From contig DVHC01000030.1 of NCBI GenBank assembly GCA_018712385.1, positions 1 to 37,396 on the forward strand: 37,396 bases of DNA, in the 5' to 3' direction. Made by a program: the position numbers and the translations under genes. This document shows positions 3,405 through 19,569 of this stretch, in pieces; positions within the stretch are counted from its first letter, which is position 1, and every line of letters starts with the position of its first letter. The DNA comes from Candidatus Onthousia excrementipullorum (lineage in GTDB: Bacteria; Bacillota_I; Bacilli_A; RF39; UBA660). Below the pieces are notes generated by a model. The model saw only the letters and a list, made by a program, of their open reading frames with translations, did not search any database and was not told the DNA's origin.

Positions 3405-4088
3405 CTACTTATCCTTTCTAACTTTAAAGTCCATATTAGGAAAACTTTTAGATAGAACACTATCAGGATAGACTTTATCATATAATCTACCAACTGGGGT
3501 GATAGGCTCAATACTCTCTCTTCTCATAGCACTTCTAAATAAAGCAGTCCATGATATAAACATATCAATTATTAAGAATATTAGCAAGAAATAATAGATG
3601 ATATTACCAATATTTACAGGTATTTTTTCAATTAATTTAGATATAAAAGGATAAATTATTTTGGCAAAGATAAGAGCGAAGGCTCCCCATACCAACATAT
3701 AAGGAATTGTAGTTCTTCCTCCAATATTTAAAAAGTAACTAGAGTAATCCCAAGACCTCGTATGAGTAAATATTTCTTGTAATAAACTTATTAAGTATTC
3801 AAAACCTCCTCCTAATAGGCATCCATAGATATAGGTTTTAATATTAGAATAGTTTGGTTTAACTAATAAATAAACAAAAAGTACTGCCCCTGCTCCATAG
3901 ATAGGACTAAAAGGACCATAAATTACTCCTCGTCTTAATTCCCAGACAATATCTCCTGTGGTAAGATAAACTTTAACTAAATTAAGAATTTGTTCATAGA
4001 AAGCTCCAAAGATAGAACCTATTACAAATATTAAAAATAATTTCTTACCACAAAATCCTTTTGCAAATACTTCTCTTTTACTACTCAT
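3405..4088 (-). CDS. Putative ABC-transporter type IV / CmpB family membrane protein
   Basis: The 227-residue multi-pass protein matches the pattern I know for PF06541: RRGVIYGPFSPIYGAGAVL, then a GGGFEYLISLLQE segment and SWDYSSYFLNIGGRTTIPYMLVWG. There are about five hydrophobic helices and a basic, soluble C-terminal tail. Despite the family name, no transporter partner is present here and the function is unknown. The stop codon is 2 nt before the ATG of the glycosyltransferase, so the two are likely one operon and may act together at the membrane. Confidence 0.75.
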   Translation of the reverse strand: MSSKREVFAKGFCGKKLFLIFVIGSIFGAFYEQILNLVKVYLTTGDIVWELRRGVIYGPFSPIYGAGAVLFVYLLVKPNYSNIKTYIYGCLLGGGFEYLISLLQEIFTHTRSWDYSSYFLNIGGRTTIPYMLVWGAFALIFAKIIYPFISKLIEKIPVNIGNIIYYFLLIFLIIDMFISWTALFRSAMRRESIEPITPVGRLYDKVYPDSVLSKSFPNMDFKVRKDK

Positions 4089-4188: not shown

Positions 4189-4764
4189 TTACATAAATAT
4201 TTCTTTTGACCTTGAGTTAAAATTATCATAATTTTCTACTCTTAAATAATAAACTGCTATCTTACTACATAGAAAATAAAAACCAAATTGACTAAGAGAA
4301 TGAATTCTTTTTATTTTTCCCTTTTTATATAAATCAACAATTATATTTCTAACAAAACTACTACTTCTTGAAAAATCAATGTAATAATTATCCAAATAAC
4401 AATTAGTTAAACACATTTTACCACTTATAATATTATTTTTTATATTTAGCATTGTCTCTTCTTTAAAATCATGATTAAAAGGTATAAATGGAGCAATCAT
4501 GATATACTCATCTCTAGTCATATCACAAGTATTGGATAAAATCATTCCTTTAGTAATAAAAGTAACTTCTTCACCATCTTGATTTGTATATGAAAATGGA
4601 ATATTTTCTAAAATATCACCTTGAGATAATATATCTAAAGGTCTAGAAAACCAATTAGGTTTTGTAGTATCAAATTGTTTCATTAAGTCTTTTATCCCAT
4701 TCTTAATATTTGTATCTATAGTTGGAAATATCTGATAAGTATAATCAATAAATTTTTCAAGCAT
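4189..4764 (-). CDS. Uncharacterised protein, third gene of an orphan cassette
   Basis: I do not recognise a named family. The 191-residue soluble protein has an N-terminal helical part, then a compact region LSQGDILENIPFSY and GMILSNTCDMTRDEYIMIAPF, in which the SNTCDM motif with one Cys may be a functional centre. No signal peptide or TM helix is visible. Its ATG lies inside the last codons of the preceding gene (ATGCTTGA, 8-nt overlap), so the two are translationally coupled. Proteins with a QGDI...S(N/Q)xCD layout occur in accessory gene cassettes, but I cannot assign a role. Confidence 0.7.
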   Translation of the reverse strand: MLEKFIDYTYQIFPTIDTNIKNGIKDLMKQFDTTKPNWFSRPLDILSQGDILENIPFSYTNQDGEEVTFITKGMILSNTCDMTRDEYIMIAPFIPFNHDFKEETMLNIKNNIISGKMCLTNCYLDNYYIDFSRSSSFVRNIIVDLYKKGKIKRIHSLSQFGFYFLCSKIAVYYLRVENYDNFNSRSKEIFM

Positions 4765-15026: not shown

Positions 15027-15163
15027 CTTATAGCATAGTCTATAAATGATTGCAAAAAGGTAATTTTGTAAATTCAAAGAAAATATTCTTCCAATATTTA
15101 ATTTTCTCTAGAGGAATTTTAAATATTCATATCAAAAATTACTTGAATTTACAAAATTCATAC
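15027..15163 (-). promoter_or_regulatory. Rpn leader element A: palindromes plus sigma-A-type promoter
   Basis: Reading on the minus strand from 15163: GTATGAATTTTGTAAATTC, then about 65 nt, then GAATTTACAAAATTACC leading into TTTTTGCAA. TTGCAA (15050-15055) is followed after exactly 17 nt by TATAAG (15027-15032), a good -35/-10 pair for the Rpn gene. The outer AATTTTGTAAATTCAA blocks form an inverted repeat. The same organisation recurs at 30586-30756. The palindromes may bind the HTH-like Rpn tail or another regulator; that is inferred. Confidence 0.65.
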
Positions 15164-15248
15164 TTTTTTATTTTTTTTCATATTTCTCCTTTCTCCATCT
15201 TTTTTTACAAGTCGCTCTTCTATCTATAAAGTATCATAGCAGTTATAA

Positions 15249-15539
15249 TTAGTCAACGCTTTTTTGATACAAAATTAAAATAGCAGATAGAAGTTCTACC
15301 CGCTTTTTAAACTCTAAATATCTATTATTAATATATTTACTAATTTTAATAATTATCAAATTATCTATAATTAAATAGTTAATATTATATTTGTCTAAAT
15401 TATTAAAACTATTATTTAATAGATTAAATATCTTATTATCAATATCAAAAGTAATATATTTATCTTTCTTTAAAATAATAATTACATAATTAGGATATAA
15501 TCTTTTCAAAAATAAATACCTTGTCTTAATAATAATCAC
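15249..15539 (-). CDS. Small ORF downstream of the DGR template repeat
   Basis: The 96-codon reading frame lacks any ATG; it would begin at GTG 15539 or at one of the following ATT codons, after AGGAAGTG. The protein is basic and Ile/Lys/Asn-rich: KRLYPNYVIIILKKDKYITFDIDNKIFNLL, with alternating hydrophobic strands. The layout of the first half (strand, FD, helix, strand) loosely resembles the MutS-domain-I-like accessory protein at 17175-17558, so it might be a diverged second copy. The possible ribosome site lies within a hairpin (15542-15577). It could be a real accessory gene or a decayed remnant. Confidence 0.45.
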   Translation of the reverse strand: MIIIKTRYLFLKRLYPNYVIIILKKDKYITFDIDNKIFNLLNNSFNNLDKYNINYLIIDNLIIIKISKYINNRYLEFKKRVELLSAILILYQKSVD

Positions 15540-15540
15540 T

Positions 15541-15668
15541 TCCTATACACTTATAGGAATGTGACTTATCACATTCCATATGTATATTTAATTCTGCTTA
15601 AAAGCAAGGTTAATCTATGTCGATTCATCTTCTATTTAAAGTCTTAACCTTAAATACCTAAAATTAAT
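15541..15668 (-). ncRNA. Structured 3' flank of the DGR template RNA (putative spacer)
   Basis: Downstream of the TR on the RNA strand are several stems. AAGGTTAA (15644-15651 in RNA sense) pairs with TTAACCTT (15606-15613) around a 30-nt loop. GGAATGTGA and TCACATTCC (15556-15577) form a perfect 9-bp stem with a 4-nt loop, and CTATA/TATAG (15542-15557) forms another that overlaps it. In phage BPP-1, RNA next to the TR folds, binds RT-Avd and supplies the priming site; this stretch is a candidate equivalent. Confidence 0.5.
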
Positions 15669-15771
15669 CGGCTGGGCGGACCCCATTATTAGTATTGTTC
15701 GCATTATTGTTGTTAAGATATCCCGAACTATTCAGATTAAACACATTGTTAGAATTAGAGGCGTGGGGAGT
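15669..15771 (-). repeat. DGR template repeat (TR)
   Basis: The minus strand reads ACTCCCCACGCCTCT at its 5' end and GTCCGCCCAG at its 3' end, both identical to the variable repeat at 17851-17950. In the VR frame it encodes HASNSNNVFNLNSS, GYL, then NNNNANNTNNGVRP. All 13 variable positions are AAT or AAC, which allows changes to many residues by A-to-N mutation without making stops. The TR lies within the 3' untranslated part of the RT transcript, about 20 nt past the RT stop. Compared with the VR it has one extra codon (AAT). In its own frame it reaches a stop soon after GVRPAD, so it is not a gene. Confidence 0.95.
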
Positions 15772-15792
15772 ATTAACCATATAAAGATTAAC

Positions 15793-16860
15793 CTAATTAG
15801 TAAAGAAATACTTATCTACTAATCTTTTAATTTTAAGAGTTTTAAAACTATAATAATAGTTATTAATACTAGAAAAAGTACTATTAAAAGTTATTTTATC
15901 ATTATCATATAAATACCTAACTTCTTTAATTCTTTTCTTAACTCTTTTTAAAGTACTATTACTAATATTAATAATAGTTTTATTATTAATAACTCTAAAT
16001 CTATAGCCTAAAAAGATAAATCCTTCTTTACTATTTGTAATATTAGTTTTATTTTTATTTACTTTAAGTTTATAAACATCATTTAATTCTTGTTCTATCT
16101 TTTCTTTTACTTCTTTAAGGTATTTTTTATCTTGATGAATTAATATAAAATCATCCATATATTTTACGAAATACTTAATTTTATAGTCATGTATTATCTT
16201 ATGGTCTAATCTATTTAAGTAATAGATAGATAAAAACTGACTAGTCATATTACCTATAGGTACGCCTTTATCATAAAGGTAATATGGTAAAGATAAATTA
16301 TTTTTAGAATTTATCTTACTAATAGATTTATTAATATAATCTTTATTAGTACTATCTATAATATTACATATATATTTATATTCAAAAGTGTCACCTAAAT
16401 CTTCTTTTAACATATTTTTTAAAACATTATGATCTATTGAATAAAAGTATTTAGATATATCTAGCTTTAAGATATAAAACTTATCATACTTTTTCATCTT
16501 CTCTATATATTTTTTAACTAAATTAAGAGCATAATCTCTTCCTTTACCCTTTCTAGTAGCAGTATTTCTATCATCTAATTTACATTCTAATTTAGGCATT
16601 AAATAATATCTTGTAACATAATGATTAATAAGTTTATCTTTAATATTTAAAGACATAATAATTCTTTCTTTAGGATATTTAATTAAGAAGATATTATAAA
16701 ATCCTCCATTATAGTTTAAATCAACTAAATCATTACATACTTTCTTTATATTCATCATTTTATATTTTTCAAATTTATATATCTTATATTTATTTTTAGT
16801 GTTTTTACATATCTCTTTTTCATAAATTCTTAAAACATCATCAAACTTTACTTCTATCAT
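15793..16860 (-). CDS. DGR reverse transcriptase
   Basis: I favour the ATG at 16860 (MIEVKFDDVL), inside the end of the Avd-like gene; an ATG five codons earlier is possible. The 355-residue enzyme has RT motifs in order: RNTATRKGKGRDYAL, motif A LKLDISKYFYSIDH, motif B VPIGNMTSQFLSIYYLNRLDH (the IGNxTSQ pattern of DGR and group-II-type RTs), motif C YMDD in VKYMDDFILIH, then EGFIFLGYRF. It ends with a short thumb-like basic region. No maturase or endonuclease domain is present. With Avd it would copy TR RNA into adenine-mutagenised cDNA that replaces the VR. The TR follows directly. Confidence 0.96.
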   Translation of the reverse strand: MIEVKFDDVLRIYEKEICKNTKNKYKIYKFEKYKMMNIKKVCNDLVDLNYNGGFYNIFLIKYPKERIIMSLNIKDKLINHYVTRYYLMPKLECKLDDRNTATRKGKGRDYALNLVKKYIEKMKKYDKFYILKLDISKYFYSIDHNVLKNMLKEDLGDTFEYKYICNIIDSTNKDYINKSISKINSKNNLSLPYYLYDKGVPIGNMTSQFLSIYYLNRLDHKIIHDYKIKYFVKYMDDFILIHQDKKYLKEVKEKIEQELNDVYKLKVNKNKTNITNSKEGFIFLGYRFRVINNKTIINISNSTLKRVKKRIKEVRYLYDNDKITFNSTFSSINNYYYSFKTLKIKRLVDKYFFTN

Positions 16861-17182
16861 ACTTAATCCAACCATATAACATCTTCATAATAGTAGTAAG
16901 TTCAAATATAACTTTATCAAATACTTTTTTACTAATATATTTATTTCTATAACTTTTTTCAAAGTAAAAATCTAACATAGATAATTTAGATGATATCTTA
17001 TCTAAATAATTATTTCTATCTATACTACTATTCGCTTCATAAATAAGTTCTAATACTTTAAGAGAATCTCTCATAATAGCATCTTTCAAAATATATTCTC
17101 TTTTAGGATAATTAATTAAGATATCATCTAAATAAAAGATAAAGTTTTTCATCTTTATTACTAACTTAAATCTTTCATTCAT
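16841..17182 (-). CDS. avd: Accessory variability determinant (Avd-like, helical bundle)
   Basis: The protein (about 113 aa) is all-helical and basic: FYLDDILINYPKREYILKDAI, RDSLKVLELIYEANSS, LSMLDFYFEKSYRNKYIS and FDKVIFELTTIMKMLYGWIKY. This matches the 23S-rRNA-intervening-protein/Avd fold, which forms a pentameric barrel that binds the DGR RT and template RNA. Its ATG lies within the end of the MutS-like gene (start 17182 or 17188, GAGG upstream) and its end overlaps the RT start, so the three are translationally coupled. Confidence 0.88.
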   Translation of the reverse strand: MNERFKLVIKMKNFIFYLDDILINYPKREYILKDAIMRDSLKVLELIYEANSSIDRNNYLDKISSKLSMLDFYFEKSYRNKYISKKVFDKVIFELTTIMKMLYGWIKYDRSKV

Positions 17183-17558
17183 TAACATAATCCTCTATCA
17201 TTTTATAAAGTTTCTCTATTTTAGTAAAAGGCATTTCTCTTATTTTATCTTCTAAAGATTTCTTTTTAGTATCTAGATTATATTTATCTATACCTAGTTT
17301 TAAATAGTGATTATAGTTATTAAGTTTCTTAAAGTCTTTAGTATTATCATCTGTTTTTTCATCTATAATTTTATAACTAATCTTTTTAGATTCTAAATTA
17401 TTAATTACTTTAGATAAACTACTATGAGGAAAACCACATCTTTTATTAGTTATTTTATAGTTAAATAAATAATAAAGTATATAACTATCATCATCAAAGC
17501 ATTGATAAAATCCACCCATTTTTCTTAAAGTTATAAAGTTATTACTACTATTTTTCAT
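17175..17558 (-). CDS. MutS-domain-I-like DGR accessory protein
   Basis: The 127-residue protein looks like an isolated MutS N-terminal (mismatch-recognition-type) domain: GGFYQCFDDDSYILYYLFNYKIT parallels the FYEMF-type strand and helix of MutS, and CGFPHSSLSKVINNLESKKISYKII parallels the GVPxHxL..y...L...GyxV segment. The MutS ATPase and clamp domains are absent. From memory, surveys of DGRs list small MutS-like (MSL) proteins as alternative accessory genes. Its role is unknown and may be binding of cDNA/VR heteroduplexes. AGGAGAG precedes the ATG, and a TATAAT-like -10 lies in the upstream spacer. It leads the accessory-Avd-RT-TR operon. Confidence 0.75.
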   Translation of the reverse strand: MKNSSNNFITLRKMGGFYQCFDDDSYILYYLFNYKITNKRCGFPHSSLSKVINNLESKKISYKIIDEKTDDNTKDFKKLNNYNHYLKLGIDKYNLDTKKKSLEDKIREMPFTKIEKLYKMIEDYVNE

Positions 17559-17720
17559 TGTTACTTCTCTCCTATAACTAGATTATATAATATTATTAAA
17601 TAATTATAGTAGTAATTCTTTATCATGTTGTTATAATACATTCTCACATTTTAAAGATATACTTATTCTTATTGACTTTACTGTTAAAGGAATAGAAACA
17701 ACAGATAACGAAAAAAGGCA

Positions 17721-17760
17721 AAAAAAGCACGGCCAAAAGATTTCACCTTTTGGGGCCGTG
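17721..17760 (-). terminator. Strong GC-rich terminator after the DGR target gene
   Basis: On the minus strand CACGGCCCC, AAAAG, GTGAAAT, CTTTTGGCCGTG forms a 12-bp stem with a 2-nt G bulge, followed by CTTTTTTTG. It begins 17 nt after the target gene stop. Beyond ending the transcript, a hairpin just downstream of a VR can aid DGR target recognition in phage systems; that role is inferred here. Confidence 0.85.
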
Positions 17761-17776
17761 TTTTACTACTTCTTTA

Positions 17777-19174
17777 TTAACTTTGCAAAATATACGGATT
17801 ACTACTACTTCCATCACCGTCAACAATCTTGATACTAGATTTTAGAAAGACGACTGGGCGGACACCATTTGTAATGCTCGTAATATTGCTGTGAACATAC
17901 CCAGTGCTGCGCAGACTAAACACACGGTCAGAAGTAGAGGCGTGGGGAGTGATTGTCCATTGATGTGCTGAGTTAAATATCCAGTCATTATTGTAACAAT
18001 CACTTACACTATCCCAACTATATAATTTTTTATTTAAACAAGTATTTCTATCAGTTGTAGTTCCTCCACTTGTCGCATATCCATAATCACTCGGATACAT
18101 TAATCCTACTTTTCCAGTCCAACTTGTACTTCTGCCACTATATACTGTTGTTCCTCTTTCCCTTTCATAAAACATTGATGCAGTTACATCATTATTTGAA
18201 CCACTTCCACCTAAATACCATACAGTATCACCTATCATACTTTTGGCATCACTAGTTAAACTATTGGTCCAATAATCCCCATTATTTAAATTAGTATTTA
18301 ACGTTGCATTAGGCCAATCATTTATGTTATTAGAGTCCCAAGCAATATCTCCAATAGATTCATTTCTTATTAATTTAAGTCTTTGTTCAACATTACCTGT
18401 TCCATCATCTACACTAAATACTCCTATTATTCTCCATGTTTCATTATTAAAAGTTACATAGTTATTAGGATTTGCTCCTATATATCTATAATCTGTTAAA
18501 GCAGTTGTTTGTTCTGTGGCAGGATGAGAGAAAGTCCACATCTCTTTTTGTTGTTCACTTGTTGCACTATTGAAGTCTAAATCTTCTGGATTTGCTTTTG
18601 CAAGTATTGTATCAACTGCTGTTGGTACTGGTTGTGCTCTATCATAACTAGTAACAACTATCTTACTCTTATATTCTTTACCTTGAGCACTGTTATCTGC
18701 ATCATTATCTAACCACATCCATAATGTATATGTAACAGTATCACTTGGTTCTAGTGTCTCTTCACTCTTTATATCAAAGGTTCCTGTCCCATAACTACTA
18801 ACTTGTACTACTCCACTATCATATCCTGCATCATTAGTTAATCTCATCTTTAAATAATTATTTGTTAAAGTATTAGTAGCTTCTTCTTCTAATGATACAT
18901 GATAATAAGCATTTATATTACCAGTATTAGTTATTGTAAAAGTATATGGTGTTAACTTTTGACCTTGTGCATCTGTCATAGGAGCGGCATTATCTAGGTT
19001 TATATAATTACCATCTTCAAAGTCTACTTTTAATATACCTGCTGTTAAAGTAATCTTCTTATCTCCTTGTATAGTCATAGTAAGTAGTGCATAGCTTGCT
19101 CCTATTAATGCTATTACACTTATTACTATTGTTACTATTACTAATACTATATACTTTTTTCTTGTCTTATCCAT
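17777..19174 (-). CDS. DGR target: surface-anchored TasA-like protein with C-type-lectin-like variable domain
   Basis: The 465-residue protein begins with a basic segment and a hydrophobic anchor/signal (VLVIVTIVISVIALIGASYALL, shown in part), then a TasA/camelysin-like beta domain (about 35-185: ITLTAGILKVDFEDG, FTITNTGNINAYYHVSLE). A linker leads to a C-terminal domain (about 190-465) with WRIIGVFS, VGLMYPSDYGYA, WIFNSAHQWTITPHAS and NGVRPVVFLK, the pattern of formylglycine/C-type-lectin-like DGR variable proteins. The VR covers the HASTSDRVFSLRST to NGVRP region near the end. It should be displayed on the cell surface as a diversified ligand binder. GGGGAG lies 5 nt before the ATG; the pilin gene ends 2 nt upstream. 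Confidence 0.93.
   Translation of the reverse strand: MDKTRKKYIVLVIVTIVISVIALIGASYALLTMTIQGDKKITLTAGILKVDFEDGNYINLDNAAPMTDAQGQKLTPYTFTITNTGNINAYYHVSLEEEATNTLTNNYLKMRLTNDAGYDSGVVQVSSYGTGTFDIKSEETLEPSDTVTYTLWMWLDNDADNSAQGKEYKSKIVVTSYDRAQPVPTAVDTILAKANPEDLDFNSATSEQQKEMWTFSHPATEQTTALTDYRYIGANPNNYVTFNNETWRIIGVFSVDDGTGNVEQRLKLIRNESIGDIAWDSNNINDWPNATLNTNLNNGDYWTNSLTSDAKSMIGDTVWYLGGSGSNNDVTASMFYERERGTTVYSGRSTSWTGKVGLMYPSDYGYATSGGTTTDRNTCLNKKLYSWDSVSDCYNNDWIFNSAHQWTITPHASTSDRVFSLRSTGYVHSNITSITNGVRPVVFLKSSIKIVDGDGSSSNPYILQS
17851..17950 (-). repeat. DGR variable repeat (VR) at the end of the target gene
   Basis: It aligns end to end with the TR at 15669-15771. By my hand alignment, 13 differences fall on template adenines (for example AAT to ACT, AAT to CGT, AAC to CAC) and 8 on other bases, plus one missing AAT codon. 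Residues at the 13 template Asn codons are now T, D, R, S, R, H, S, N, I, S, I, a gap and N. The invariant GTCCGCCCAG at the 3' end is the likely initiation-of-mutagenic-homing sequence. Confidence 0.94.
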
Positions 19175-19176
19175 AC

Positions 19177-19569
19177 TTACTCCCCATCCTCAGTTTCATA
19201 GTTTGCTTTATCACATACTAAATGTGCTTTATATAGAAAGTCTTTATTACTAGTTTTCTCTACTTCTACATAACTCTTAGTAGTATTACAATCATTATCA
19301 TTAACATCTTTTATCATGTCAATATATTCTTCTAAAACTAGAGCACTGAGTAGTACTCTAGTCTTTTCTCCTACTTCTTTAGGTAGATAACTTCTATAAT
19401 CTGCAAAGTAATCTTTACTAGCTAGTATCATCATCTTTTCACTAGTATTATAGTACTCTAAATTACTAGTTTTAATTAGTTTATTAGCACTTAATAATAC
19501 TATAGTTACTAATATACCTAATATTATTATAGTTGCTAATAACTCTATTAAAGTAAATCCTTTACTCAT
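19177..19569 (-). CDS. Type IV prepilin-like protein in the DGR operon
   Basis: The 130-residue protein starts MSKGFTLIELLATIIILGIL: a five-residue-scale leader, Gly before Phe as the prepilin peptidase site, Glu at +5 and a hydrophobic helix. The soluble part is acidic, with two Cys near the C-terminus (NDNDCNTTKS, LVCDKA). Its ATG overlaps the VUT gene stop by 4 nt, and the DGR target starts 2 nt after its own stop. This placement suggests the pilin-like protein and the diversified protein are made together and may assemble or localise together at the surface. Confidence 0.9.
   Translation of the reverse strand: MSKGFTLIELLATIIILGILVTIVLLSANKLIKTSNLEYYNTSEKMMILASKDYFADYRSYLPKEVGEKTRVLLSALVLEEYIDMIKDVNDNDCNTTKSYVEVEKTSNKDFLYKAHLVCDKANYETEDGE

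Follow-up and report, generated by a model that had tools for sequence, protein, structure and literature searches.

Two described systems stand closest to the locus considered here. The diversity-generating retroelement (DGR) of the Bordetella phage BPP-1 (brt, avd, TR, mtd) combines a reverse transcriptase (RT) bearing an SQ motif, an accessory variability determinant (Avd), a template repeat (TR) with AAY codons and a C-terminal variable repeat (VR) placed on a C-type-lectin fold, with a stem-loop lying 3' of the VR; its expression in laboratory E. coli has been described (PMC12875486). The variable protein of Treponema denticola (2Y3C) is a cellular DGR target, i.e. a bacterial surface protein in which a C-type-lectin fold is diversified by a DGR. 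The role of cellular DGR targets is mostly unknown. All of these traits recur in a DGR cassette that occupies positions 15545-19174, with all its parts on the minus strand, of a 37,396-nucleotide stretch of Candidatus Onthousia excrementipullorum (contig DVHC01000030.1, positions 1 to 37,396), the whole of which is hereafter called the window. We interpret it as a chromosomal, host-serving DGR that diversifies a lectin-tipped surface protein of an uncultured gut bacterium, and give this reading a probability of about 85%. It is founded on the parts and their hidden Markov model (HMM) matches, the match between TR and VR, the adenine bias seen with the TR of a sister genome along with unbiased controls, the excess of codon change in the VR, the recurrence of the same cassette type with adenine bias in dozens of related loci, the housekeeping neighbors and the lectin fold. 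The mechanism itself is known; however, the architecture of the target was not found described in the literature searched, and the genome is unusually rich in DGRs and their targets. The source genome is a 1.5-Mb metagenome-assembled genome (MAG) that is 91% complete, and the relatives compared with it are likewise MAGs, mostly of uncultured Bacilli.

An initial annotation, made from the sequence alone, had claimed a complete DGR, and every part that it named (RT, Avd, TR, VR and target) is indeed present, although it overlooked an open reading frame (ORF) at 17175-17558. The RT (360 aa, 15793..16875) contains both motifs ascribed to it, namely YMDD and the DGR-type SQ motif IGNMTSQ, and matches the Pfam RVT_1 profile with an E-value of 6.9e-19, its closest PDB sequence match being 8ub7_A, named 'Reverse transcriptase' (1.8e-20). 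Its orthologs are 94-95% identical in protein; IGNMTSQ is present in 40 of 73 related RTs, and related DGR-type RTs (E<=1e-20) are encoded by 29 of the 35 genus genomes. The Avd-like protein (115 aa, 16841..17188) was recovered, as had been claimed, with the Pfam bAvd profile (1.4e-9; 38.9 bits against a 40-bit cut-off) and the NCBIfam DivGenRetAVD profile (2.6e-13; 50 bits against an 80-bit cut-off). MutS-like accessory genes (MSL) are known from surveys of DGRs, and the overlooked ORF (17175..17558) encodes a 127-aa protein related to MutS domain I (Pfam MutS_I, 4.8e-6, over the cut-off), with an ortholog in a related genome (G032) matching at 9.5e-6 and its position being kept in syntenic orthologous operons; a DGR together with a MutS-like accessory was not found in the literature searched. 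Sub-cut-off NCBIfam matches to Drt3a and to a retron RT might be taken to indicate a defense or retron system beside which the repeat is incidental, but the IGNMTSQ motif, the neighboring Avd, the adenine-biased VR and a layout shared by dozens of loci all speak for a DGR. As the TR/VR pattern already contradicts a defense or retron origin, we assign it a negligible probability.

The TR lies downstream of the RT gene at about 15669..15771, and its frame ASNSNNVFNLNSSGYLNNNNANNTNNGVRP contains exactly the 13 Asn codons that the initial annotation had counted. The VR (17851..17950) encodes residues ~409-442 of the 465-aa target, including the GVRPVV motif noted previously at the C-terminus of this exported protein, and terminates in a GC-rich end resembling an initiation of mutagenic homing (IMH) element, TGTCCGCCCAG. 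In a search of the 1.5-Mb genome the two repeats match with an E-value of 2.7e-14 at 76% identity. The window VR was the only VR recovered for this TR in the genome, the remaining matches being a 28-nt fragment that ends a paralog (C7) and short matches at chance level. The writing of the VR is best seen with the TR of a sister genome (G021), whose middle and 3' part depart from those of the window TR: when it is aligned with the window VR, 14 of the 15 mismatches fall at A, with no gap (P = 7e-7). As controls, neither the target DNA outside the VR (57/162 mismatches at A, P = 0.93) nor the differences between TRs show any bias towards A. The TRs of the window and of two related genomes (G015 and G021) differ in their middle and 3' part, with an identical 5' segment and GTCCGCCCAGCCG end; the present window TR contains TTCGGGATATCTT. 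Given the mismatches at A with the G021 TR and the unbiased controls, the most likely origin of the window VR is adenine-specific retrohoming in which an older TR allele, i.e. one of ancestral type, served as the template, with the window TR having changed afterwards. The VR has also changed in excess of its surroundings: among three orthologous targets 42% of its codons change the amino acid, a share that drops to 0-8% over the final 24 codons and is 14-22% elsewhere in the protein. The VR differences might also be ascribed to gene conversion, rather than reverse transcription, with the ~20 paralogous targets as partners, since the paralog family is large with alignable lectin domains and a chimeric TR in G032 (see below) suggests recombination. 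However, conversion does not predict mismatches at TR adenines far beyond chance, and the genome has no paralogous VR that aligns with the window TR over its length; hence, we regard this explanation as highly improbable.

Certain observations weigh against a DGR that is in working order. With its own TR, the window VR has 21-22 mismatches, 8-9 of them at bases other than A; in the alignment with 22, only 13 are at A, with one 3-nt gap (hypergeometric P = 0.002), which is a weaker signature than expected of a working DGR. Both profile scores of the Avd-like protein are under the curated cut-offs. Further, an insertion-like sequence interrupts the RT ortholog of G021, implying that the DGR system can be lost in this lineage. 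The break in this RT falls between IGN and MTSQ of the SQ motif, and the interrupting sequence has inverted ends resembling those of an insertion sequence (L174 ~4690-4760; L175 ~3428-3526). An ungapped comparison of the window TR and VR, which gave 20 apparent non-A mismatches, was discarded because the codon gap accounts for half of them. The TR of G032 (L172 5857-6005, G032:C39) is of the window type in its 5' half and of the type of another DGR of the source genome, C1, in its 3' half. This chimera, which possibly arose through recombination between TRs or through misassembly of the MAG, no longer fits the G032 VR and raises the prospect that TRs may exchange parts, albeit with the caution due to MAGs.

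Such evidence could be accommodated by a decaying DGR that once diversified its target but whose TR drifted until retrohoming ended here, with C58 and C1 being the live cassettes of the genome. Thus, a gap and 9 mismatches at bases other than A separate the window VR from its TR, whereas such mismatches number none in C58 and 0-2 in the core of C1, and both the split RT of G021 and the ill-fitting chimeric TR of G032 are in line with decay. On the other hand, the window retains uninterrupted reading frames for RT, Avd and MSL, the RT orthologs retain the above-noted 94-95% identity, and the window, G015 and G021 share one TR sequence in its 5' part and at its 3' end. Taken together, we hold decay to be a serious contender, though the less probable course, and favor a cassette whose VR was written from an older TR allele and whose RT may be active now. 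Either the window TR changed recently or retrohoming at this cassette has stopped or slowed, and the current activity of the cassette is uncertain because its present TR no longer matches the VR. That the two repeats are out of step had not been apparent in the initial annotation, nor had the fact that this is one of three DGRs accompanied by a large family of paralogous targets.

The source genome (G000) encodes five RVT_1 genes, three of which belong to DGR-type elements (those of the window, C58 and C1), each with its own TR. The RTs of C58 and C1 are only 41-45% identical to the window RT, indicating that the three DGRs are separate lineages; both have Avd-like and MSL-like neighbors, in whose recognition position and weak alignments count for more than HMM matches. 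In C58 (L004/L037, G000:C58:9716-13429) the TR sits between the target and the MSL-like gene, and all 20 of the 20 VR mismatches are at A (P = 1.5e-11). In C1 (L003/L036, G000:C1:18542-23976) a single TR is accompanied by two VRs in a 663-aa target with tandem lectin domains, with 12/12 and 13/15 of the core mismatches at A. From these patterns both cassettes look recently active. The C1 TR additionally matches the VRs of other targets, more weakly. About 20 proteins of the source genome combine the N-terminal domain of the window target with one or two lectin domains, and in eight genus genomes checked the target-family profile has 12-77 matches per genome. Among related loci, 76 contain a TR/VR-like pair at P<0.01, a count drawn from fetched loci of which some are present under two identifiers; in many of these nearly all mismatches are at A (e.g. 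23/23 in L069 and 22/22 in L121). In a locus labeled as Candidatus Saccharibacteria (L151), a related RT is accompanied by a TR/VR pair with a strong bias towards A (25/27). The combination of DGRs, Mollicutes and gut was not found in the literature searched.

The target itself (465 aa, 17777..19174) consists of an N-terminal membrane helix, a beta-sandwich domain and a C-type-lectin-like domain with the VR. An AlphaFold2 (AF2) model places the helix at residues 3-32 and the beta-sandwich at 48-177, followed by a flexible linker and the C-terminal domain. The latter (residues ~227-465; 17780..18496), modeled alone, attained a pLDDT of 90.6 and a pTM of 0.89. No significant match was recovered when PDB sequences were searched with the target or with profiles of its domains; therefore, the evidence for its fold comes from AF2 and a structure search. 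The best solved match is 9QA6, from the IgA peptidase of Thomasclavelia ramosa (Z = 17.1, 2.6 A over 189 residues, 18% identity), and nearly all the other structural matches listed (Z = 4.6-6.5) are C-type-lectin-like domains; these include 2Y3C (Treponema variable protein, Z = 5.2), 8Q4E (Legionella Lcl domain) and 4EPS (Bacteroides fimbrial protein), at Z-scores of 5-6.5. In two reports, the N-domain of the T. ramosa peptidase is named DUF6273 (PMC12402451) and called a C-type-lectin-like domain (PMC12237041). The window protein scores below the cut-off against the DUF6273 profile (0.04-0.057), and paralogs from the same genome score above it. The structural matches, the naming of the 9QA6 domain and the paralog matches support, at the level of the fold, a lectin-like reading of this domain. 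The lectin-like ending proposed in the initial annotation is thus borne out by structure prediction.

The initial annotation had further likened the N-terminal domain to TasA and camelysin. In favor of this, the target has a GASYALLT leader motif (in the signal/anchor helix with the SYALLT motif, residues 3-32, 19079..19168) followed by a predicted beta-sandwich, as in TasA; at the same time, the window domain matches neither the TasA nor the camelysin HMM (PF12389, NF046066). Among 28 family members one matches camelysin PF12389 (1.5e-4) and one TasA NF046066 (0.0047), both weakly. The beta-sandwich (residues ~47-178; 18641..19036; VIA matches at Z of about 5-6.6) matches 7UEG, a donor-strand subunit of the Pyrobaculum bundling pili, at Z = 6.3, amid many generic beta-sandwiches, and no TasA chains are among the structural matches listed for this domain. 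Both the Pyrobaculum pili (PMC9715654) and TasA (PMC9674648) assemble by donor-strand complementation. Gene neighborhoods provide the strongest support for a TasA-like domain: in a congener (G005) five stand-alone homologs of the N-domain (phmmer E-values of 7e-11 to 6e-16) surround a SipW-type peptidase (L199 2477-6715, G005:C8), as would be expected of a shaft-and-tip arrangement. The source genome also has two stand-alone homologs, on C45 (6.6e-21) and C62 (1.2e-10). Hence, a TasA-like N-domain is plausible, and display of the lectin on a TasA-type fiber is a fair hypothesis rather than a finding.

The chances seem about even that the target is instead a plain membrane-anchored adhesin, whose helix stays in the membrane and whose beta-sandwich is a spacer, with no TasA-type fiber. 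This would be in keeping with the lack of a TasA or camelysin match in the window protein, with two other DGR targets of the group (L115, L131) in which this lectin domain is joined to nothing more than a membrane helix, and with published cellular DGR targets being mostly membrane-anchored (PMC8144416). Likewise, neither an S26 nor a SipW-type signal peptidase was found in the 91%-complete source MAG. However, SipW-type matches are present in 33 of the 35 genus genomes, so that this absence is probably due to assembly loss, and we ceased to count it as evidence against cleavage upon secretion. The stand-alone homologs beside SipW in G005 also argue for more than a simple anchor. In the literature searched, no paper names both DGRs and TasA, and a DGR target fused to a TasA-like domain did not come up.

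Other anchors are seen in related proteins. A DGR target with 20/23 mismatches at A has a type IV prepilin N-terminus (L143 8691-9761; N_methyl, 2.4e-9). In the source genome, a protein encoded on C52 (L191 2802-4712, G000:C52) fuses a prepilin-like N-terminus (GFMLVET) to tandem DUF6273-type lectin domains; its gene adjoins another pilin-like gene and one that we take to encode a PilB/GspE-type ATPase, making it a possible pilus-tip lectin. The occurrence of the lectin domain on membrane-helix, prepilin and TasA-like N-termini suggests that it has moved among several display anchors.

We propose that the RT, helped by Avd and possibly by the MutS-I-like protein, copies the TR RNA into cDNA that carries errors opposite adenines, and that this cDNA is then substituted for the VR, which lies 3'-terminally in the adjoining target gene. 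The 13 Asn codons would thereby give rise to varied residues on the DUF6273-type lectin domain of an exported, membrane-anchored protein, which in turn would alter its binding, with the TasA-like beta-sandwich keeping the lectin at a distance from the membrane or building it into a fiber. More tentatively, and with less confidence than we accord to decay of the cassette, gut Bacilli might build TasA-type donor-strand fibers with SipW-processed stand-alone subunits as the shaft and with TasA-lectin fusions, some having tandem VRs under one TR, as decoration, so that the diversified lectin tips would make a re-writable adhesive biofilm fiber.

The neighbors of the cassette, which we take to be mutL, uvrC, miaA, lepA and rpsT, place it amid housekeeping genes and thus indicate that it is chromosomal rather than part of a prophage. 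A GC-rich stem-loop with a T-run lies 3' of the target stop codon (17726..17763, minus strand; -19.8 kcal/mol, z = -3.4), and is a candidate terminator, VR-downstream hairpin or both; RNA folding predicts hairpins at the matching position in the C1 and C58 DGRs. A second stem-loop is predicted downstream of the TR (15545..15587, minus strand; -18 kcal/mol, z = -5.5). Adjoining the TR is a small ORF (96 aa, 15249..15539, minus strand) without a match in a Pfam search, whose orthologs in G015, G004 and G016 (90, 43 and 33% identity, respectively) stand beside the same DGR type; it may be a further DGR accessory. Upstream of the target and in the same direction is a gene for a prepilin-like protein (19177..19569, minus strand; N_methyl, 3.9e-6), whose G032 ortholog lacks the GFTLIE motif and whose association with the cassette is uncertain. 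An AT-rich repeat of ~200 bp with inverted arms is dispersed beside the DGR and target loci of the source genome, its copies being 67-85% identical (window 15051-15256; L036 4732-4942; L050 1386-1597; L041 718-926; L039 11161-11371).

With three DGRs and ~20 lectin-tipped proteins in one reduced genome, and 12-77 family matches in each of the eight genus genomes checked, strong selection for variable surface binding is implied. The pairing of a TasA-like with a DUF6273 lectin domain offers a defined scaffold for the cellular display of a diversified domain. Moreover, the templates themselves change and may recombine; since the window VR is explained by a sister TR, a DGR may be mistaken for a dead one if only its own TR is used to score it.

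In comparison with BPP-1, the window DGR differs in being chromosomal, in having an extra MutS-I-like protein, in the placement of its TR after the RT and in its cell-surface target. The DUF6273 N-domain of the T. ramosa IgA peptidase (9QA6; PMC12237041, PMC12402451) shares the C-type-lectin-like fold of the target, but is fused to a peptidase instead of a TasA-like domain, and the available parts of these reports make no mention of DGRs. TasA and the archaeal bundling-pilus proteins (PMC9674648, PMC9715654) resemble the target in having a SYAxF-type leader followed by a beta-sandwich (predicted, in the target), whereas the target adds a C-terminal lectin domain and is not significantly matched by the HMMs of TasA or camelysin. 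The cellular membrane-anchored targets of Roux et al. 2021 (PMC8144416) share with it an N-terminal membrane segment, a C-terminal C-Lec VR and modular N-terminal domains. Finally, the window system is set apart from the T. denticola variable protein by a DUF6273-type lectin on a TasA-like beta-sandwich, and by the presence of three DGRs and ~20 paralogs in one small genome.

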